A DNA stretch of 64,000 nucleotides from Panorpa germanica (lineage: Eukaryota; Arthropoda; Insecta; Mecoptera; Panorpidae). Below the pieces are notes generated by a model. It was given only the letters and a program-made list of their open reading frames with translations, did not search any database and was not told the DNA's origin. This document shows, piece by piece, positions 10,801-29,289 of this stretch (position 1 is its first letter; the number at the start of each line of letters is the position of its first letter). The stretch is taken from NCBI GenBank assembly GCA_963678705.1, contig OY783204.1:18486759-18550758 (forward strand), in the 5' to 3' direction. A program made the translations under genes and the position numbers.

Positions 10801-13800
10801 TTGATTGAAATAGATGTTAATAAATGTATATTCTAATAAATATCTAAATTTTGACGAAGATATAGCAATTAAAAATTCGAATTGTAGTTTTAGCGCTACA
10901 GATGTCGGCCATTTGTTAGACGTAACATGTTCTACTATTAAGGGATGGGTGAGTTATTTTTTATATCTCTTTTACGCTTGTTGTATAAATGAGATAGCGA
11001 TTTAGCGGACTCCCTTTAATAAATAAAAAAAAAAAAATACTATTTTACTTGTGAATAACTCCTAAAATCGATTGGACGTTTGAGGTTCAGGTAGCCAACT
11101 TTATCAACATATAGTACAGTTTTATAGAAATTAAGACATGGTTTAAAGATCATTCATAGGAAGATATATGTAGATGTAGAATTAAAGAAACCTTTGTTTT
11201 TACATACGGTTTAAGGTTTGTTTAAATCCTATAATTACTACCTGGAAATATTAACTACTAAATAATAAATCCGTAAAGTAACTAGACTAAACTAAGGTAT
11301 AAAGGGCTTGTGTCCTATGTCTTAACTTCTATAAAAGTGTGCTATATATTGATAAAGTTGGTTACTAGAACCTCAAATGTCGAATTATTTTTGAATAACT
11401 CCTTCTATTTCAGGAGATATTAACAATTAAAAAAGTCACTTTTTGTCTTTAATTATTAAAGGGACTCAACGTTGGACAACATTACAACTGCATGTTACAT
11501 CACAGCCGCTAGTTTCTATCTCTTTTATACAACAGAGCGTAAAAGAGATAGCATATTCAAGATAGAACTCTGGCAAGTTTACAGGTTACCAACCTTACAG
11601 CTCTGCTATATGTACGAGTATTTACATATCAAAATATCAAATATTGTTTACAGCTATTTCAACGAACAATAAAATTCCAATATTGTCCAATATGTCTGCC
11701 GCAACAGGGTTAAATAAAATAAAATCGTATTATTCTTTGACTTGACTTGATTATTTTGACTACCAACGGCTACAAAACATTACCACAGCACTGACCTACT
11801 CAACAAATAACGTTAAAATGCATTTCACGTCATACAAATATGGCCGACCATTTCTAGCGCTAAAACTACAATTCAAATTATTAATTGCTATATCTCCGTC
11901 AACATTTAGATATTTAATAAAATACACGCCAATACACATTTATTAACATCAATTTCAATCAACAATAGAAAAATCGACCACTAAAAACTGAGGACGCAAG
12001 CCCATTATAATAATACTAGCTTTTACCCCCGTCGCAAGCGACGTTTGTTTTTTGTGAGTGGCTTGAATTTCAAGTCAAAATTTAATTCCATTTCTAAATT
12101 GAAATAATAAATAAACTCGTCCTATATTGATTTAACACTTAATAACAATTAATTTTTCATACAAACTGACTAAGAAAATACATTTTTTATATCAAAATAA
12201 AAAATATTTTGAACTTATGCGACATTTGAACAACTTTTTTTCAAAATTTGGGATTTTTTTTGATTCGTAAATAAGTTGCCAAGGTTAGCCTATATACAAA
12301 ATTTCAACTTTCTAGCACAATTTTTACTCTCGGCAAATGCTGCCCCAGTGCCCCCCAATAAAATTTTAAAATTTTGAATTTTTTTTTTATTAATAATATA
12401 CTTAATTATTCTAGAATCCAGAAAATGAATTTTCTCCAAAGTTCCCTACCGGGCCCCCGAATTTCTTTAACCTCCCCTTTTTTAATTTTTGAATTTCTAA
12501 TTTTTGAGAAATGTCAGCATTGAATACCTTAATACACATGCAAAATTTCAACTTTCTATCTTATACGAATTAAAAGTAATACAGCAAAAAAGGGATCACT
12601 TTATTTCCAGTTTTACCAAAATTACGGGTTTCCAGGAAATTCAGGGAAAAATCCGGGGACGCCAAAAGTCTTAGAATTTTTTTCTCTACGAAATATGAAA
12701 TTTTTAAAAACTTCCCTGGAGCCGTTTTCGAGATGCTATACAAAATTCGAACCAAACATATAAACACATAAACATATAAGAATATAAATATACACCTGGG
12801 ACATTATAATATACTTTAGTTTACCCTTGTCGCAATGCGACGTCTTTTTGGGGTGTATCATTTTAATCCAATAAAATAATTCGTAATTAAATTTCATATT
12901 TCACTGTTCTATTTTTAAATTGAAATAATAAATAAACTCGCACATATACATTGACACATATAAATTGACTAAAAAATATATTTTTTTTATCAAAATAAAA
13001 AATATTTTCAATTTATGCTTTATTTGACCAACTTTTTTTCAAAATTTGGAATTTTTTTTTTCGATTCGTAAATAAGTTACCAAGGTTAGCCTATATACAA
13101 AATTTCAACTTTCTAGCACAATTTTTACTCTCGGAAAATACTGCCCCCGTGCCCCCAAAAAAAATTTTGAAATTTTGAATTTTTTTTTATTAATAATATA
13201 CTTAATTATTCTAGAATTCAGAATATGAACTTTCTCTAAAGTTTCCTACCGGGCCCCCGAATTTCTTTAACCCCCCCTTTTTCAATTTTTGAATTTCTAA
13301 TTTTTGAGAAATATCAGCCTTAAATAGCTTAATACACATGCAAAATTTCAACTTTCTATCATTTACGACTTAAAAGTAATACAGCAAAAAAGGGATCACT
13401 TTTTTTCCAGTTTTTCCAAAATTACGGGTTTCCAGGAAATTCAGGGAAAAATCCAGGGACGCCAAAAGTCTTAGAATTTTTTTCTCTACGAAATAGGAAA
13501 TTTTTAAAAACTTCCCTGGAGCCGTTTTCGCGCTGCCATACAAAATTCAGTACCAAACATATAAGAATAGATTCAAACACCTGGGACATTATAATATAAG
13601 ATTAAAAATTGTAATTAATTAATTACTAATGATCACTCCACATACTGAATAAATAAAAGAGAATTATTGTTTGCACAGGAAATGGACACTTACAACACCC
13701 GGACGGCGTTTTCACTGATTGGGCAGCCGCACCCTGGGTGACTGCCCTTGGAATGGACAGACACTTCCAACTTCAGGACGGTGGTGTTACTATTAGAGAC

Positions 13801-14155
13801 ACTGGAATATATTTTATATACGCACAGGTTTGTACATTTACCTGAAACGTTTTTTAAACGTTATATAAGTTCAATGCTAATTCAAATTCTTCTGCAGATA
13901 TATTATCTCGATAGTCATGACGTGAACGGCTTCCGTGTCTACCAGAACAACGAACCTCTACTTCAGTGCACAACGATGACACACACCGGAGACAGCTTAG
14001 CCAAGTCCAACACCTGCTTCACCGCCCAAGTTTCACACCTTACAGCTGGAGATCGGATTTCTCTGCGTGACTTAGGCGGTCACAGATACTCGCTCTTTGA
14101 ATCTACAAAGAGTTTCTTCGGAGTTGTTAAATTTGGCGACGCAAGGATCAAATAA
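4359..14155 (+). CDS. egr: Eiger-like TNF superfamily ligand, five C-terminal exons (5'-partial)
   Basis: Exons 4359-4849, 6420-6648, 10460-10661, 13679-13827 and 13898-14155 join in frame (phases 2, 0, 1, 0) to 442 codons plus stop. Every border is GT/AG. Eiger is the insect TNF: a type II membrane protein, shed to signal through Wengen/Grindelwald receptors to JNK. Visible features are an acidic stalk, a furin-type RNKR site (4659-4670), an RRRR cluster (10511-10522), then the TNF homology domain. That domain contains the GIYFIYAQ strand, SHDVNGFRVYQ, LLQC, NTCF and the terminal SFFGVVKFG strand. The SHD.NGF, LQC and SFFG motifs fit Eiger better than other TNF ligands. The cytoplasmic and membrane-anchor exons are missing and must lie left of the window or be unrecognised. 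AATAAA signals follow the stop, for example at 14663. Confidence 0.88.
5050..5850. repeat. Dispersed repeat, copy A (split by MITE)
   Basis: The sequence on either side of the MITE (about 5050-5177 and 5728-5850) matches 57415-57665 in order and orientation. Shared blocks include GAAGTGTCCTGTTTT, GAGTGGTTTCGCC and CAAATTGACTCCAAAATGTT. The nature of the repeat is unknown. Confidence 0.75.
5178..5727. mobile_element. PIF/Harbinger-like MITE with matched empty site
   Basis: Inverted ends GGGTGCGTTCCACTAAGCGT (perfect over about 23 bases) bound 550 bp. The insertion sits inside a dispersed repeat (5050-5850). A second copy of that repeat, at 57415-57665, reads straight through the site (CCGATAAAATAGAC) and so shows the empty target. 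Comparing them gives a 3-bp duplication (AAA), the length used by Harbinger-type elements. There is no transposase. Confidence 0.78.
6420..6648 (+). CDS. egr: Eiger-like ligand, basic linker exon
   Basis: Acceptor TTTTCTTAG ends at 6419; donor GTGAGT starts at 6649. Joined to the previous exon it reads DANRNPSLHGKHHKKYIPSN, with no stop across the junction. It is lysine- and arginine-rich and has no domain that I recognise. It lies between the stalk and the TNF domain. Confidence 0.8.
7375..7830 (-). mobile_element. Foldback-family repeat, uninterrupted copy
   Basis: This is the reverse complement of the 3100-4165 element without its insertion. Matching blocks include the reverse of GACGTCACGT...GCTCTTC.TTTCTATGAAT near 7660-7710 and CAAAGATATAGCTATTGAAAAT at 7470-7492. 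It is non-coding. Confidence 0.6.
7831..9217. other. No gene seen; AT-rich intron sequence
   Basis: This lies within the second large intron of the Eiger-like gene. A TTAAGGGGTTAG start at 8049 resembles the left end of the TTAA-flanked MITE family, but no matching right end was found. Nothing else is recognised. Confidence 0.4.
9218..9733. mobile_element. MITE with about 60-bp inverted ends
   Basis: The left end AGGGTGTCCCAATATTCAAC continues through GATAAGCGGGCACCAGAG to about 9282. It returns inverted at about 9670-9733 with only a few mismatches. The 516-bp element has no frame of its own; the - strand frame at 9573-9755 is built from the inverted end. The flanks are TA-rich, so the target duplication cannot be called. 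Confidence 0.8.
9734..10459. other. Intron sequence, possible MITE remnant, no gene
   Basis: The block around 9890-10030 (TTGACCTTTGACTTTGAATA then TTCCAACTTTCAGCTC) looks like the interior of a degenerate MITE, but no paired ends were found. The rest is AT-rich intron. Confidence 0.35.
10460..10661 (+). CDS. egr: Eiger-like ligand, start of TNF homology domain
   Basis: Acceptor TATTTTTAG ends at 10459; donor GTAAAT starts at 10662. The exon carries the NPQRRRRTHR basic cluster, a second possible processing site. It ends in the first strand of the TNF domain (PLAAAHFNGDTSRF), the usual AAH(Y/F) opening of this fold. Confidence 0.83.
10759..12006. mobile_element. Foldback/MITE element, family AATGGGCTTGTG (longest copy)
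   Basis: The ends AATGGGCTTGTG (10759) and CAAGCCCATT (to 12006) are the tips of inverted arms about 200 bp long. The arms share GGTCGAT, GATATAGCAATTAA and GTTTTAGCGCTA. The interior carries the family core ACTAGAACCTCAAATG and a Ser/Tyr-rich spurious frame at 11472. The element sits in the intron before the TNF-domain middle exon. Relatives occur at 2742, 3100, 7375, 35037, 43810, 45441, 56212 and 61570. Confidence 0.72.
12012..13605 (+). mobile_element. Two tandem LINE 3' tails of about 0.8 kb
   Basis: Copy one (about 12012-12811) and copy two (about 12815-13600) are collinear and closely similar. Each starts with TTTACCC..GTCGCAA.GCGACG. Each continues through ACCGGGCCCCCGAATTTCTT and CCGTTTTCG, and ends CACCTGGGACATTATAATAT. 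This arrangement is a common 3' tail of insect non-LTR elements. A third, truncated copy of the last 185 bp lies at 43195-43380. No reverse transcriptase is present in any of them. Confidence 0.65.
13679..13827 (+). CDS. egr: Eiger-like ligand, TNF domain middle exon
   Basis: Acceptor TTGCACAG ends at 13678; donor GTTTGT starts at 13828. It encodes the W-rich loop and the GVTIRDTGIYFIYAQ strand. That strand corresponds to the GIYYVYAQ signature of TNF ligands, the most diagnostic piece of the family. Confidence 0.87.
13898..14155 (+). CDS. egr: Eiger-like ligand, terminal exon
   Basis: Acceptor TTCTTCTGCAG ends at 13897; the stop TAA is at 14153-14155. It has the two conserved cysteines of Eiger (LLQC and NTCF), the basic-residue loop AGDRISLRDL, and the closing strand SFFGVVKFGD. 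The intron before it is only 70 bases long. Confidence 0.88.
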   Translation: MYYLDSHDVNGFRVYQNNEPLLQCTTMTHTGDSLAKSNTCFTAQVSHLTAGDRISLRDLGGHRYSLFESTKSFFGVVKFGDARIK

Positions 14156-16090: not shown

Positions 16091-18440
16091 AAAATAAGGG
16101 TAAACTAAATAAAATTAAGAAAAAACATTTTTTGTACAATATAAATGTGTTAAAATACATTCCAGAGCTGTTTCACTTACTAAAACCAGTTCCAAACGAT
16201 GCTACGAACACCTTCTAACGTTGGACGTATCGTGTGGCCGATGCTGAATCTAAGTGTGTCCAACGTTCATGTTGGAAAAAGTTCAGGCTGTTGTAGGTCT
16301 TTTGACCTACACACACTTGATCGAAATATCATGCACTGTTGCACGAATCGTCCAACAAAGGAACGTTTTATACTTGAAAGTTTATTTATTTACTTGAAAG
16401 CTTTTGTAAAACACTGTCACTGTCAATAATATCAACAAATTAATAAAATAAATAAATCATTCGGATCAAATATTCCTTCCACCGTGTAGCAGGAAACTTG
16501 CCATGTCAATCTTCGAATATATGACTCACACGTTCACCACATCGTCTGGAGCCGGCTTAAGCCAACCAAATTCAGAGAAGGTATTTTTTGAACTACAAAT
16601 CTACAACAAAACAATACCTCTCGAATATAATGCTTCTGCCATGAGGGTGGGACATATACGTAAGCTCTCAATTATATCACGATTATTAAACATTTTCAAA
16701 CCCTCTGACAAAAACTTGGCGATGACATTAATTATTGTAATTAAGATTACGCTGTAGGGGTGTGTATCACCCTACACCCACTCTGCTAGCATTAAAACTG
16801 GTATCATCATTAAGCAGCCTACTATACTCCACTATATATCTCCGATTGGCGGTGTGGAGACATGAGGCATCATTTGAAATACATAAAAGCATTGGGAGGG
16901 GATGAAAGGAGAAATAACCTAGAGGAATGTGGTGACAGCCGGGAAATTTAATAGTCGTGGAATTTTCACAGATGATAATATAACGGGAAACTGGGGCTTG
17001 TGGAAAACGTGTTCTGAATTGTGCCAAGGTGTGTCCCTCAGGAATCAGCCTCGAATCAATTGGAGTGCCGAGTGGTGGAGGGATTACTTATTGGAAATTA
17101 TGTAACATATTTGTAGAATTATATAGTTTGAAAATTAAGATATATCTTGAAACATCTTAAGCGTTAGAAAATAAGTTAGCAATAATTAAATTGTCACTGA
17201 GCTTAAGCTTAGCTTTAAATAAAACCATTTCTTTGCGGAGTTTGGACCTTATAGAGAACTATAGGCTGGCTAGGGCGTATCTGCGATCTGTCGGCGGTAT
17301 CCAAGTTCTCGAACGGCAAATGTCGCTCAGTTCCTTTCAATAGCTTAGTGGGCGCACAATTTTGTTATGAACGACCTTTTAGCTATTAACTAATTAATAG
17401 CAATTTTTTATTTATATCAAAAGACACAGCAAAACATCAGAACTTTTTAGATTACATTTATTTTAAACTACACTATTCAATTACATATTAATTGATTAAA
17501 TATTTTAGTTAATAAGAATATTAGTTACGACATTAGGTAAATGTAACTCGCGGTTTAAGTTATAAATAAAAATATGTGTATTTATTATTTTATGTATATG
17601 CACCAAAAAGGTTAATCGTGCTGTAGGTTTGAGCGTTGAAACAATAAGAACGAATTAGGACCAAATGCGTAGTGTCGACCCTAGTAGAAGTGAATCGTAA
17701 AACAAAGGATGTTTACATAAGAAATATTATAGCTTGCCCACAGAGAGTAGTGTATATGAAACAACTAGGCATAAAATATAAATGAATTGAGACAAAGAAA
17801 TCTTAAATCTAACATTAATTAAAAATAAAAGCAAGATATTGATGTACAAATATGAATATTGCATGCATTTATTATCACCATTTAAACATTTTGAAGTCGC
17901 TTTGACATCATATATAAAATCGTATGATTTTTTTTTTTTTTCATGAAACAATTCAATTAGATTTTATTCGTTCAAACGAAATGTCAGTGATATAAACTAC
18001 AAATGACAAAATCACTTCACCAGGCCTCACTACCATACCAGTATTGAATGAAGTTGCAAATAAACCATTAAAATATGTACAGATATATCTTGTTTCTTTT
18101 TCTATGACATTCTGGTGAAATGAATGTGGAAATTTTTTTCTACTAAAATAAGTATTTTCAAATGTAAAAGACACAACAACTATATCTCTATTTAATTGTA
18201 TGATGTTGGAAAAGAAAACAATAATCTTAGGAAAAGATTTTGACAATTATTTTTTCATAGGTGACTGAAAATCTATCTGAAATCTGAGTGAAAAGGAATT
18301 GATTTCTTGACTGGAGCTTCACCTAGCTATACTATTTCACCAAAACGTTTACTTGGAAGTCATTTCAAGAAGTGGTGCTATATATCCTAAATAATGTCCA
18401 AAATTGAAGAACAATAGCACTTGTAATAGTTGAAAATTTT
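16091..18440. other. No confident gene; one coding-like fragment at 16923-17105
   Basis: This stretch is mostly AT-rich. Between 16760 and 17105 base composition is more balanced and one + strand frame (16923-17105) looks protein-like, including WGLWKTCSELCQG before a stop at 17103. That pattern recalls a thrombospondin type 1 repeat, but only one strand of evidence supports it. No splice partner was found. The frames at 16199 and 16503 have no recognisable features. Confidence 0.35.
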
Positions 18441-18459
18441 TTGTGCACATGCCCTAACT

Positions 18460-18493
18460 TCCGCCATGTTTTTCGGGCACTTTATTTACAAAT
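18460..18493 (+). repeat. Left inverted end of the THAP/YqaJ transposon
   Basis: The blocks TCCGCCATGTT (18460-18470) and TTTCGGGCACTTT (18471-18483) are adjacent here. The right end has 19 bases between the same blocks. It lies about 140 bp before the transposase start codon and is the likely THAP-domain binding region. Confidence 0.72.
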
Positions 18494-18631
18494 GTATGAG
18501 CAGTGCATATATTTATAAAGAAATTAGTAATAAAACAAGTAATAATTAACAATTTTTTATAAACAGTTCAATTCAAATTATTGTGCATACATGATAAAAT
18601 AATATTACAAGTATTGTAGTTAAAATATATA

Positions 18632-20477
18632 ATGTTATCTATAAGGAAAGGGGCAAAAAAACGTTGTTGTTATGGAGTATGCCGCAGTGATACGCGTAGT
18701 AAATCCTTTCAGGAGAATTTATATTATTTTATTAGTTTTCCAAAACCTTGTTTACAATATCGACGGAAACTCATTAAAATAAGTAAGCAAAAGCACTTAA
18801 AAATTTGTCACAAATGTGCTAAATGTGATTTGTGGGTAAAGCGGTGTGGACGAGGTGATGGTAGATTCCAAGGAATTGATAATGTAAATAAAGACACATA
18901 TATTTGTTCACTTCATTTTGAAGGAGAATCTGGTCCAACAACCGAATATCCAGACCCCATCAGTTGTGTAAAAAAAAGGAATAGTTATAAGGTAAATATA
19001 TTTAATTAAATATGAATATAATAGCTCGCGCTATAACCTCAAATAATAAAATTTGTCCTAGGTAAAAGTCACAAGAACCTCGCTGGCTGAAAAATATAAG
19101 GAATCAAAAGATGTAAGTTCATATAAAAAAAAAATTATATCTTACATGACAGAATATTGTAGTGTTGAGAAACAAATTCTTCAATGTTTCAAATTTAATT
19201 AAAAAATTGTATGTTATAGAGTATGAATCAAGTTGTAGACGTTTCAAACTGGTCTGCAGAAAAAATGGTGTATGAAGATAGAGATATCCGTAATGTGGGT
19301 ATTGATGAAGGAAAAAACGATGAAACAACCAGTTTTATTAAATCCAAGTATAACTTCAATATTGAATCCAAACTCAGGTAACGGAGACAGTGACATACTC
19401 AGGTCAAGTGTCACCAACCAAAATGTTGAGATTTCAACCACAGAGACTTGTGTACAAGATGAAATTACTCCATCCACTACATGCAGTCAAGGTGTTCAAA
19501 CTGATATTAAAAAGTTCACTAGTAAAAGGATTCAAGTTAGTTTACGTCAAGTTTCAGTGATAGATAATTTCGAAGAATCTTTAAAAAAGAACAGTAAAAA
19601 ATGTAAATTTTACACAAGCTTGGAGTATGATGAAGTAGTTATTTTACATAATTTTGTAAATCCGGGTTGTAAAAGTGTAACAGATAAAGTAGGTCAAGAA
19701 ATGAAGAGCAATAATTGTATTAAAAAATTAACATCAATACAGGAATTAATTTTAGTGCTTATCCGATTACGTATGGGCACACTAGTTGAATATTTAGCTT
19801 TCAGATTTGAAATTTCAACAACTTTAGTTTCTAAAACCATAAAGTCTTGGATACAACATTTATATGATGAATTTACATCCAATTTGAAGCCATTCATGTT
19901 CCCTTCAAAGAAAAAGCTTGCAGAGACTTTACCAAAAACTTTTAAATTCTTAAAAAATATACGAGTTATTGTTGATTGTACAGAATTCCAATGTCAGTCA
20001 CCGTCAAACTTCGAACATCAAGGAAATTTATACTCTTCTTACAAAGCTCGAACTACTTATAAAGCTCTAATTGGATGTACTCCAAATGGAGGTGTATGTT
20101 TTGTATCCGATGTATACGAAGGTAGTATTTCAGACCGTGAAATTTTTATAAAATCAAATATTTCTGACTTTTTGGAGCCGGATGATTTAGTTTTGGCTGA
20201 TAGAGGATTTACCGTTCATGACATTGTTGAATCGAAGCAAGCGCATTTAAATATACCACCATTTTTAAATGGAAGAAAATGTTTATCTCCTCAAGAGGAA
20301 ATACAGACAAAGCGGATTGCCAAACAACGTATATACATAGAACATGTTATTGGAAGAATTAAACAATTTCGACTGCTTCAGAAAGTTCTACCTTTAAGTT
20401 TACGTCCATACATGTCCCAAATTCTTTTTGTGTGTGCATGCTTAGTAAATTTCCAACCGCCGATTATTATAGATTAA
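18632..20477 (+). CDS. THAP-like zinc finger / DDE (Harbinger-type) transposase
   Basis: Four exons are inferred: 18632-18991, 19062-19112, 19220-19298 and 19378-20477. Together they give 529 codons with all junctions in frame. The last small intron (19299-19377, GTATTG...CTCAG, 79 bp) is my inference; it removes a stop and a frame change. Exon one encodes a THAP-like C2CH module: Cys13/Cys17, Trp68, Cys92 and His95. Its internal spacing is longer than the family norm, with extra cysteines. Exon four carries the DDE_Tnp_4-type core. The catalytic residues are Asp in IVDCTEF (19974), Asp in LADRGF (20199) and Glu in YIEHVIGRIK (20340), all present. It should bind the inverted ends and cut and join DNA in the nucleus. 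No internal stop remains after splicing. Confidence 0.82.
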
Positions 20478-20688
20478 ATAATTGGCCTGGAAAATTGCAG
20501 TTAACGTCGAAAAAGAGGTTTTTTAGAATAAATAAGTTTGGTTTATTAAAAATTGTTGCCCGATAAGTCGCGAAAATACAGTTTTTGAATTGTAATTTAC
20601 TATAAAATTACAACTGTAACTCTTATACCAATTGAAATTGTAAATAATATACTTATATAAATAATATATATTTTTTATTTCTTTGGTT

Positions 20689-22570
20689 TTAATTTTTAGA
20701 TAGATCAAATGGCGCTAAATCACGAGGAATACGCATTTCAAAATACTCAGGTGCCAAAACGTTTTGATGAAAAATACTTATACGATTTAATACTGGTTCA
20801 ATGAAATTTGCATCGTATTTAATTCTTTCGATGTGATAACCTTTCGCTGTCCACACAACAAAGTCACACCACTGTCTTCCAGTCATTGCCATTTGCGTCT
20901 GAATTTGATAGTAATATTGATGATTACGTTTTAATTTTATACATCTAGGTTTAAGCAAGATACAACAAAATGCATTTCTTTGCTGAGGTGTTAATACATG
21001 TAAATCAGTTGCTCCAACGTGTTCTAAAATTTTTGGACATTTGATTTCAAGCAATCCATATGTTTTATTTCGTACATCTTCAACAAGTCCATCAGGAGAA
21101 GCTTCTATCCCTGGAAATTTTGGATTAATCCACAATCCACAATTTGATATTTCAAATCCAAACTTTCGAGATGTAAAATCTATATACTTTCTTCTTGCTA
21201 CTTCTTCATTTTCACGACCATATTTTAACGCTGCATTGTCAAAATTTTTATCAATCCACAGGGTATATTTAATCCAATTAAAAATTTGCTCCTTGCTTTT
21301 TTCCGAGCTCAGATATTTTATTTTAGAAGCCGTAATTAATATTTTTCTATATTTCCACCAATTATCACAATCTGATTGAATTCCAGCAGTTATATCTACT
21401 GGTACTTTTTGATCTTTGTGCAGGGAAGCAGTTAATTTATACACCAGACTACGTAAAATACCTTTCCTAGGCAAGCACAGGTCGTAATCATCATAACTTG
21501 GAGTAATGACAAGTTCCCATACACTTGGGCGTTTTTTGGACCCGTGTAAAATTTGTAAGTCACGTGCGAAATTTAATGTTTTCTGTACGTCTGGTTTTAC
21601 ACATTTGATGTTACTACTTTGATAATTATTGGATTGCTTATTATTTTTTTTGTTGTTATTATCATTTTTATCGATGTTATATAGATAATCAACTTTATGA
21701 GCTTCTTTCTTCTTAGACCCTTGATTCCAAACACAAAGCTGACTTGTACAAGCAACGTTTTCTTTGGCAGCATCTTTACATTGCATCAACAAAACATGCA
21801 GGAGAGCAGCAACGTGTGCACAACGTCCTAAACTCGATGCTTTACATTCACAGGTCCCTCGCAAAATCTTTCCACTTTCAGCATTTATCATTGCACGAAC
21901 AGCGTAGCTTGTTTTTACTTTATAGGAAGCTTTGATTTTACTTTTCAGATAAATATCTTGTGATATCTTCGAATCAAAAATATCTGTAACATGGTTACTG
22001 TCGACATAAAGCTTTCCTCTTTTCAAAGGCTTAGCTGTACTATAATCTAATATATTTGGTTCATTTTCCTCATCACTAGAATTATAATTTTCTTTTTCCA
22101 CTATGCAAGATGAAATTAAATAATCATAAATAGAGGCTTCATTAAATGATTTTGGTAAATCATTAGATGGAAATTTTTGCCACACATCTGGAAAAGTCAA
22201 ATTGGTGCTAGTTGCTTGATGATTTTGGTTTCTTTGAACTTCCTGCTTCAACCATTTTCCTTTATCTAAACCTGGATCTACTGGCACACAATTACGCAGA
22301 GCGTTTTTGACCCTAAAAGAAATAGAAATAAGAATTATTCTTTTTTGTAATTACTTTTACTTATTACTATTAAATTATTATTATATATCCTAACCTCTCA
22401 ACTAGTTCGGCTTTATTTCCTCCTTGAGGACGACCATGGCACTTCAACCATCGTCGTAACTGAACACAGTTGTGGGCTTCTACGGTAGGATGCACTAATG
22501 AAGCACCGTCAATTAATTTTTCATTTAATTGCACTGATATTAGAGGTGATAATACTTGTTGCCCAGCCAT
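20689..22570 (-). CDS. SAP-SWIM-YqaJ exonuclease accessory protein of the transposon
   Basis: Two exons, 22570-22395 and 22312-20689, join at GAGAG|GTTAGG...TTTTAG|GGTC to 599 codons. The first ATG inside the right inverted end is taken as start; an upstream in-frame ATG at 22639 is possible. Domains in order: a SAP-like helix-turn-helix (LRRWLKCHGRPQGGNKAELV, residues about 38-57), a SWIM finger (CECKASSLGRCAH), and a C-terminal YqaJ/lambda-exonuclease-type domain. That domain shows GRENEE, the Asp of SPDG (21091-21093), the E.K pair of LEIKCP (21040-21048) and YYYQIQTQMAMTG. All catalytic motifs of the family are present. It probably acts with the transposase in the nucleus, processing DNA ends; that role is inferred from neighbourhood. 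Confidence 0.82.
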
Positions 22571-22621
22571 ATTTATAAAAAGTGCCCGAAACTGCGATTG
22601 CCGCGTTTTTAACATGGCGGA
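22570..22621 (-). repeat. Right inverted end of the THAP/YqaJ transposon
   Basis: The reverse complement reads TCCGCCATGTT, 19 extra bases, then TTTCGGGCACTTT and TATAAATAT. The nuclease start codon lies directly at its inner edge, so promoter and transposase-binding site probably overlap, which would allow autoregulation. Confidence 0.7.
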
Positions 22622-22640
22622 CGCGCTTGCGCTAAGCATA

Positions 22641-23430
22641 CCCTTAAAAGGTCTATTGGGAGAAAGTTTGGCGAGTTATAATAGACAATGGTTATTAAAG
22701 AAATTATTTAGTATTTTTGAAATGAATCGTATTAATAAATTTAATCATATGAAATATGTTAAATAAATTACTATAAAAAATGAAAGCTGTCTTTTATTTG
22801 GCAAGCTAGAACCCTTTCAAATTAACCCTACTAGACTGACTACCCTATTCGGTTCCCGACTAGAACCCTATCAAGTTTTCCTGTAGGGCAGTAAGGCAGC
22901 TGCGTTCTTTTTAATACTAGAACCTTGTAGTTCTCTTAGATAGTGTAAAATTATACGGCTCTGTTTTATAGATAACAAGATATGAGTAAATACATTAAGT
23001 TTTGCAGTTCTCAAGATTTAAATCAATGTGACCTTGAAGAGATAATTTCGTAAGAAGTAAAAAACATAAAGAAGAAATTCAATTAACCTAAGAAAGAAAC
23101 CCGTAATAGTCGTTTTATTACAAAGACGTAGAATATTGTATTATAACAAAGTAAATTTTAATTATTCAACTACGTAATACTAGCGGATAAGTCATTAACT
23201 TGAACTCTTTGTGAGATAAAATCACGTAGACAATGAACAGCTTCAGGTACTGTGACCTTTGATGTTTCAGAGGTTTTATTATTTTTGTTTTAGATTGCTT
23301 TTTTCAAATTTAAATAAAAGCTTATAAGCAAACAGATGTTCCAAAACAAACATATTTACATATACTGGTACAAAAAAAAATACATTAAATACGTTACATA
23401 TTTTTAAAAAAAAGTTACGGTGAAATCTGA
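22641..23430. other. No gene seen
   Basis: This is AT-rich sequence to the right of the transposon. A short direct repeat, CTAGAACCCT.TCAA, occurs twice about 54 bp apart (near 22807 and 22861). Nothing else is recognised. Confidence 0.4.
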
Positions 23431-28179: not shown

Positions 28180-29289
28180 CAGCGGTTCTCAAACTTTTTA
28201 CTTAGAGCCCCCCTGCATAATCCAGCTGTAAGCCGGGCCCCCCTACATGTTAACATACTATATATTATAAGGAAGTCGCATTTGACATTATACAATCAAT
28301 TTGTTTTTAGTTAAGTTTTGCACATTCTATGCATACTCTAATGGGGCAATAGGTTTAATCGTAATCAAGCAACAAATTCTATACAAAGAATTACAATTTA
28401 TTTAATTATTTTAGCTACTATAGTACATAATTGTTATTTGTAAGTCAAAGCAATAATAATAAAAAGAGCTTCAGTGTGAAGGATGTGCTTGTTTTTTTTC
28501 TGCGCATAGTTTCTTGAAATGCGGTGTCAGTTCTGATAACGCTATTCTGAATTCCTTGGTCGCATCCAGTCTTGAGCGATATTTACTCTCCATGGCAGCT
28601 AGAGCAGAAAACTCAGTTTCACAAGAATAAGTGGTGGCGAATGGAGTGAGTATTTTCAATGCCCTTTCACTCAAAATTGGGTGTTCCTTTTGTACACCAA
28701 TCCAGAAGCATGTGAGAGAAGATTCTTTAAACTTCATTTCAAGTCCAGTGTCACCTTGGAGGTCAATGGGATTTTCTTTTTCCTTCATGTTGAGGGAGCA
28801 CTCATCAACTGATGGTTTGAACGGGTTTTGAATCCATGCCAAACCATCCAAGTTCTCATTAAAATATTTTTCAAAACGAGATTTGAGGATTTCTACGTGT
28901 TTAAGAAAGCATTTCTTTGCATTGGTTGAAATAGTTTTGAGATCCATTTCTTCAATCATAATTTTAAGATTAGAAAATAGCTCCAAATTGTCACTTTACA
29001 GACCGCCCTCGTACAAACTTAGCTTCATTACAAAGCTTTTCACCTTTTCAGTCCATTGCAGCAGGTTTGCATCTTTTTCTGTATTTTCTGATAAACTAAA
29101 AAGTATAAAATGTTCGGCACTCTTACGACTTTGACTAAAAATTATACACTTGTTGTAATTTTAAAAATAAAAAGTTTGCTTTATTATTTTGTAAGTAAAT
29201 TTAATTAATTTTTCAACCAAGCTTTGGGCCCCCCTGAGCCATCATTGCGCCCCCCTTGGGGGTCGCGCCCCACACTTTGAGAACCGCTG
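28180..29289 (-). mobile_element. hAT element with perfect 8-bp target duplication, internally deleted
   Basis: The ends CAGCGGTTCTCAAACTTTTT and its inverse (GCAGCGGTTCTCAAAGTGTG on the other strand) are the classic hAT (Buster/Charlie-like) termini. The target duplication CTTTAGAT is perfect (28172-28179 and 29290-29297). Only 1.1 kb remains; inside, on the - strand, is the end of a hAT transposase. Confidence 0.9.
28471..28986 (-). pseudogene. hAT transposase C-terminal fragment (ZBED5-like)
   Basis: A 171-codon frame ends in LTPFATTYSCETEFSAL followed by SKYRSRLD. This is the hAT C-terminal dimerisation motif, with the (Y)xCExxFSAL core. Its nearest look-alikes are the transposases that gave rise to ZBED5/FAM200-type vertebrate genes. 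The BED zinc finger and the catalytic acidic residues are absent; a normal protein is about 600 residues. Upstream sequence (28987-29135) continues the homology in broken frames. It cannot catalyse transposition, though the fragment itself has no stop. Confidence 0.8.

Follow-up and report, generated by a model that had tools for sequence, protein, structure and literature searches.

ISL2EU transposons, one of the PHIS groups, pair a THAP-DDE transposase with a second open reading frame (ORF) of the YqaJ type and insert into A|AT|T targets, as already published (PMC4482050; PMC9179366). Their inverted ends span 6-259 bp and usually begin with GG, and in other PHIS groups a Myb/SANT ORF sits in the second-gene position; the role of the second gene in ISL2EU, as that of the extra ORFs, is termed unknown in the group-defining paper (PMC4482050). 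Two further systems are close: KolobokE, in which a DDD/E transposase of another superfamily is fused to a lambda-exonuclease-like nuclease lying behind it and TTAA flanks the element (PMC9587614), and Spy, whose DDE transposase is related and which is reported to form the sister clade to ISL2EU; Spy carries no gene besides the transposase, makes no target duplication and has shown activity (PMC11304231). Here we describe a two-gene element in the genome of the scorpionfly Panorpa germanica (Mecoptera, Panorpidae), found in a stretch of 64,000 nucleotides (the window). We read it as an ISL2EU transposon of the cut-and-paste type, in a copy that became inactive recently (probability about 0.88). 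The family is new and inactive but of a known kind, and not a new machine.

The element resembles ISL2EU in its THAP-HTH-DDE transposase accompanied by a YqaJ ORF, in its AT duplication within A|AT|T, in its animal host and in its length of 4-5 kb, and differs from it in starting with AG and in that all aligned copies are broken; moreover, the SAP and SWIM parts of its nuclease go unmentioned in the accessible part of PMC4482050. It differs from KolobokE in that its nuclease is a separate, convergent gene. Borders, AT duplication, convergent genes, domains, sister copies and broken frames are all observed, and the ISL2EU/PHIS placement proposed by the original prediction, an annotation of the window made from its letters, agrees with the THAP, HTH and DDE domains, the YqaJ second ORF, the A|AT|T target and the animal host. 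Several points weigh against the reading as a whole. The element is bordered by AG and not by the usual GG; the assignment draws on architecture, target and host and not on a DDE tree with named ISL2EU sequences; the element and its proteins are known here from sequence; the transposase is broken in all six aligned copies and the nuclease in five of them; and Spy, with no gene besides its transposase, is active (PMC11304231; PMC4482050).

Borders, target site and decay of the element

Searched at the DNA level, the 464-Mb genome returned at least 13 matches, at least seven of which (including the window copy) reach at least 3.6 kb at 97-100% identity, all copy counts being lower bounds. We aligned six near-full copies, leaving out truncated ones and one interrupted by an insertion (L007); their pairwise identity is 98.4-99.9%. 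The breakpoints common to the six (Table 1) lie 32 bp further left and 14 bp further right than the span first proposed (18448..22640). AT flanks both ends in every aligned copy, preceded by A in 6/6 and followed by T in 4/6, the right flank reading ATA in L005 and L006, two copies with a duplicated left flank in common. An internally deleted copy (L020) has the same end bases, with flanks A-AT and AT-T. Besides the subterminal repeats there are short inverted ends at the outer borders, reading AGCCCTTGTAA and AGGCCTTTTAA in sister copies; the element begins with AG.

Because the AT might belong to the element itself, empty sites of the sister copy L003 were sought by joining its flanks through one AT and searching the host genome. 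This query gave 41 matches, eight of which span its positions 1-218 uninterrupted at 94-100% identity. Among ten extracted loci, the nine whose junction was displayed have GAATTTG (seven) or GAAATTG (two), and the filled L003 site reads GAAT-element-ATTTG. Since empty and filled L003 sites differ by the element plus one AT, the target is A|AT|T with a 2-bp AT duplication. The other copies, common ends and empty site that the original prediction had suggested looking for were all found, the empty site being that of L003.

In the transposase, HTH_Tnp_4 (39.7 bits) and DDE_Tnp_4 (152.5 bits) exceed their Pfam cut-offs, as does THAP, and exons 1-2 are 76% identical to an annotated Cotesia typhae protein (P0102). 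The DDE alignment took in 28 relatives. All six aligned copies, the window copy among them, keep the GT-AG splice borders of both genes. The window copy, however, is 2 bp shorter near 19329 than each of the five, and its transposase stops at residue 191; a 25-nt intron as the cause of this frame change is ruled out, as the five sister copies carry two extra bases there. Thus, of the two genes held to be stop-free after splicing, only the nuclease has an open frame. That frame itself carries a Glu at residue 405 (codon at 21104), in the GxSPDG motif four residues ahead of the catalytic Asp, a position occupied across 50 aligned sequences by Gly (38), Ala (10) and two other residues, the window copy's included; the Gly-to-Glu change is private to the window copy and occurs in none of the five others. 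With no open transposase gene among the six copies either, the claim of an intact copy had to be given up.

Lesions vary between copies, except in the near-identical L005 and L006 and for one 2-bp deletion at 19509 common to L003, L005 and L006. This deletion lies in a run of A, and either slippage occurred twice or a copy was mobilised with its transposase already broken. Five independent copies are separated by a mean distance of 0.0126, with 16-38 private substitutions each. Sorted into replacement, stop and silent changes, their departures from the majority codon number 36, 7 and 8 for nuclease exon 2 and 17, 4 and 6 for the DDE exon, but 2, 0 and 3 for the short THAP exon, a pattern that we read as mostly neutral decay following a recent burst. 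At host C5:10750850-10806487 (L005, L006, L007, L021, L043, L044), a left flank is duplicated across three copies, and the right flank of L005 diverges from the other two beginning at the element end, which would suit either recombination between copies or a duplication that stopped at the element.

Table 1. Coordinates of the element and its parts in the window
Feature	Position	Strand	Remarks
Whole ISL2EU-type element	18416..22654		4,239 bp; starts AG, finishes CT; breakpoints common to six near-full copies
Left AT target site duplication	18414..18415		A precedes; copy alignment; 2-bp size rests on L003 empty sites, not on the window copy
Right AT target site duplication	22655..22656		T next; copy alignment
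Left subterminal inverted repeat	18460..18485	+	blocks TCCGCCATGTT and TTTCGGGCACTTT; second block in program-listed inverted pair I1
Right subterminal inverted repeat	22579..22621	-	blocks TCCGCCATGTT and TTTCGGGCACTTT; spacer longer than on the left; inverted pair I1
Transposase exon 1, THAP domain	18632..18991	+	THAP 29.4 bits (cut-off 23.9); GT donor in 6/6 copies
Transposase exon 2, linker	19062..19112	+	AG/GT borders in 6/6 copies
Transposase exon 3, linker, HTH_Tnp_4 and DDE_Tnp_4	19220..20477	+	frame broken near 19329
Nuclease exon 1, SAP domain	22395..22570	-	SAP 28.5 bits (cut-off 23.9); splice sites in 6/6 copies
Nuclease exon 2, SWIM-like zinc finger and YqaJ domain (lambda-exonuclease-like)	20689..22312	-	open frame

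The nuclease and its pairing with transposases

The YqaJ domain of the second gene scores 58.1 bits (Pfam cut-off 22) and its SWIM-like finger 12.6 bits, under the cut-off of 19.6. The predicted model has a lambda-exonuclease fold and its closest solved relatives are exonucleases; the matches place the protein in the broad PD-(D/E)xK nuclease group, a family's absence from the fold match lists being uninformative. For the structural comparison, the alignment (A2) took 49 of 99 listed relatives. Across the 50 aligned sequences the active-site residues are kept in 50/50, and the 5'-phosphate pocket retains its Trp in 50/50 and its Arg in 48/50; the catalytic residues of the nuclease noted at first sight are present, with the private Gly-to-Glu change nearby. 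Since SAP (15 of the 50 sequences) and SWIM (10) occur among the Pfam matches and also in the databank names of relatives, the SAP-SWIM-YqaJ architecture is not new to databases. In the literature searched, YqaJ together with SWIM returned only unrelated work and YqaJ together with 'Mutator-like transposase' returned nothing. A viral collection yielded six stretches, two encoding a relative at 25-26% identity, in apparent bacterial-phage genes.

We then asked how YqaJ and transposase genes are arranged in the host genome. The best 80 of 133 YqaJ candidates were scored, 11 of which belong to the window family, so that at least 69 YqaJ places and at least 43 DDE places (56 less 13) lie outside it. 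Three YqaJ-DDE pairs are less than 1 kb apart (on C5, C3 and C6), every one convergent; the next closest are separated by 5.6 kb (convergent) and then by at least 7 kb (not convergent). With 96-99% identity between the C5 and C6 copies, the three pairs represent two families. These loci (L042, L062 and L063) thus add two divergent ISL2EU-type families, each with convergent YqaJ and HTH-DDE genes. Pfam finds YqaJ and HTH-DDE in all three pairs and a sub-cut-off THAP end in the C6 copy; the C5 copy has AGGGATTGAGAAA-type ends with AT on each side, and the C6 copy has GT at its left flank and AT at its right flank. Common ends, several copies, a clean duplication and recurrence in divergent families all agree with the two convergent genes forming one mobile unit, as had been proposed. 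Going by the lists of relatives, nuclease and transposase relatives whose contigs agree in length (3,958, 4,459 and 3,799 bases) are probably neighbours as well. A SWIM-YqaJ frame at L041 (host C3:26529500-26538500), with no DDE match nearby, is probably a remnant.

YqaJ also occurs with a different partner. Four other YqaJ loci were scanned. In L022, L027 and L034, YqaJ is joined in one protein to a transposase of the Mutator/Kolobok type (PF20700, E-values down to 1.5e-75), and in L025 the PF20700 frame is separated from YqaJ by a stop. One such element (host C11:5681032-5685353; 4,322 bp) has TTAA at both flanks and a single long open frame of 927 codons from stop to stop, in which the Mutator/Kolobok transposase is fused to YqaJ. 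Its relatives (L031, L032, L034, L035, L037, L045-L049) show a left TTAA in 3/3 copies with a visible left end and a right TTAA in 8/8; a 2.5-kb comparison of five copies gives identities of about 98.5-99.8%, and these elements are probably young. As they fit KolobokE, they are already known (PMC9587614). The two genes of the window element were expected not to turn up independently: YqaJ does stand apart from its ISL2EU partner, fused to Kolobok-type transposases, but the pairing is not undone thereby. A quick tree of 98 YqaJ rows, into which 91 of the 99 listed relatives entered (P0007, P0008, P0035, P0058, P0087, P0094, P0095 and P0098 being excluded), leaves 26 of 95 inner branches open and is compatible with a single as well as a double origin of the ISL2EU-type and the Kolobok-fused nucleases.

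Possible roles of the nuclease

Lambda-exonuclease-like nucleases act as trimers with processive, 5'-phosphate-dependent 5'-to-3' activity. Given the fold, the catalytic residues and the retained Trp/Arg pair, the second protein is most likely a lambda-exonuclease-type 5'-to-3' exonuclease that depends on a 5'-phosphate. It shares fold, active-site residues and pocket with lambda exonuclease and LHK-Exo but adds SAP and SWIM-like domains, and the element has no annealing partner gene. The kept pocket yields a definite and cheap prediction, namely 5'-phosphate-dependent 5'-to-3' resection, and with the role of the second gene termed unknown in PMC4482050, the window family offers a useful lead.

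We propose the following sequence of events. As family knowledge would have it, the THAP and HTH domains bind the transposon ends and the DDE core excises the element and inserts it into A|AT|T. The SAP domain, and perhaps the SWIM domain, would bring the nuclease to DNA, where, judging from its conserved residues, it could enter the 5'-phosphorylated ends of the donor break and resect them 5'-to-3', leaving 3' single strands. Resection would then favour repair of the break with the sister or homologue as template; this would refill the donor site and raise the copy number. That the nuclease acts at the donor break, taken as a single step, is a tentative suggestion from sequence to which we give slightly less than even odds. 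The broader idea that a dedicated 5'-end resection enzyme brings net copy gain via homologous repair, a solution reached twice (as a convergent gene in PHIS and as a fusion in Kolobok), is rather unlikely as a whole. Both nuclease types are present in this one scorpionfly genome, and the same kind of nuclease beside two unrelated transposase types suggests a function worth having. Because Spy is reported to be active with the transposase gene alone (PMC11304231), the nuclease would not be needed for cut-and-paste as such, and by this analogy it probably shapes the outcome of transposition and is not required for cutting.

The second protein could instead be mainly a DNA-binding or import helper, like the Myb-like protein of Harbinger, its nuclease activity serving, for example, to remove extrachromosomal by-products. 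It occupies the place of the Myb/SANT ORF of other PHIS groups, whose function is likewise termed unknown in PMC4482050, and has SAP and SWIM-like domains that would suit this role; yet active-site residues kept in all 50 aligned sequences argue that catalysis matters, and the host genome also has this type of nuclease joined to an unrelated transposase. We regard a helper as rather unlikely.

In Tn7, the restriction-enzyme-like endonuclease TnsA makes the second-strand cut beside TnsB. YqaJ might do the same here, the DDE core cutting one strand per end, which would accord with its PD-(D/E)xK group and with its being encoded beside the transposase in three families (that of the window and the two divergent ones). 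This is improbable, as the nearest solved relatives are exonucleases, the kept 5'-phosphate pocket suits an existing end, and Spy is reported to work without such a nuclease (PMC11304231; PMC4482050). Donor-break resection remains the reading that we favour for the active nuclease, and trimming of the transposon ends, suggested by the original prediction and in keeping with an end-acting fold and residues, we reject as very improbable: routine trimming should yield ragged ends, whereas the six aligned copies and L020 finish at identical bases, and at L003 the 2-bp duplication is clean with zero bases lost.

Candidate horizontal transfer and neighbouring features

Past its frameshift, the window transposase resembles a protein of Cotesia glomerata, a braconid wasp (Hymenoptera), with 96% identity over HTH-DDE (235/246) and 84% over the linker (112/133). 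The C. glomerata protein is itself 91% (HTH-DDE) and 54% (linker) identical to a protein of Cotesia typhae, which is no strict control, as it may come from another family of element. Descent would hardly leave a fast-evolving linker so similar in two insect orders, and this protein comparison makes transfer of the element between the scorpionfly and wasp orders likely. It thereby favours what had been raised as a possibility and adds a candidate inter-order transfer of a two-gene transposon. Two transposases of this group, from a sawfly (Neodiprion, P0105) and a lacewing (Chrysoperla, P0108), share 93% identity over HTH-DDE and 74% over the linker, possibly reflecting another transfer between insect orders.

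Elsewhere in the window, a TNF-like exon lies at 13742-14152 (+; 19.9 bits, under the cut-off of 23) and the C-terminus of a hAT transposase at 28474-28995 (-; 30.4 bits). The COX1 protein encoded on host contig C249 matches those of several Panorpidae at 100% identity, among the 8,000 closest candidates scored, in agreement with a scorpionfly as host. In the host genome, 19 of 20 COX1 matches are partial and lie outside the mitochondrial contig (C249); these are probably nuclear copies of mitochondrial DNA.
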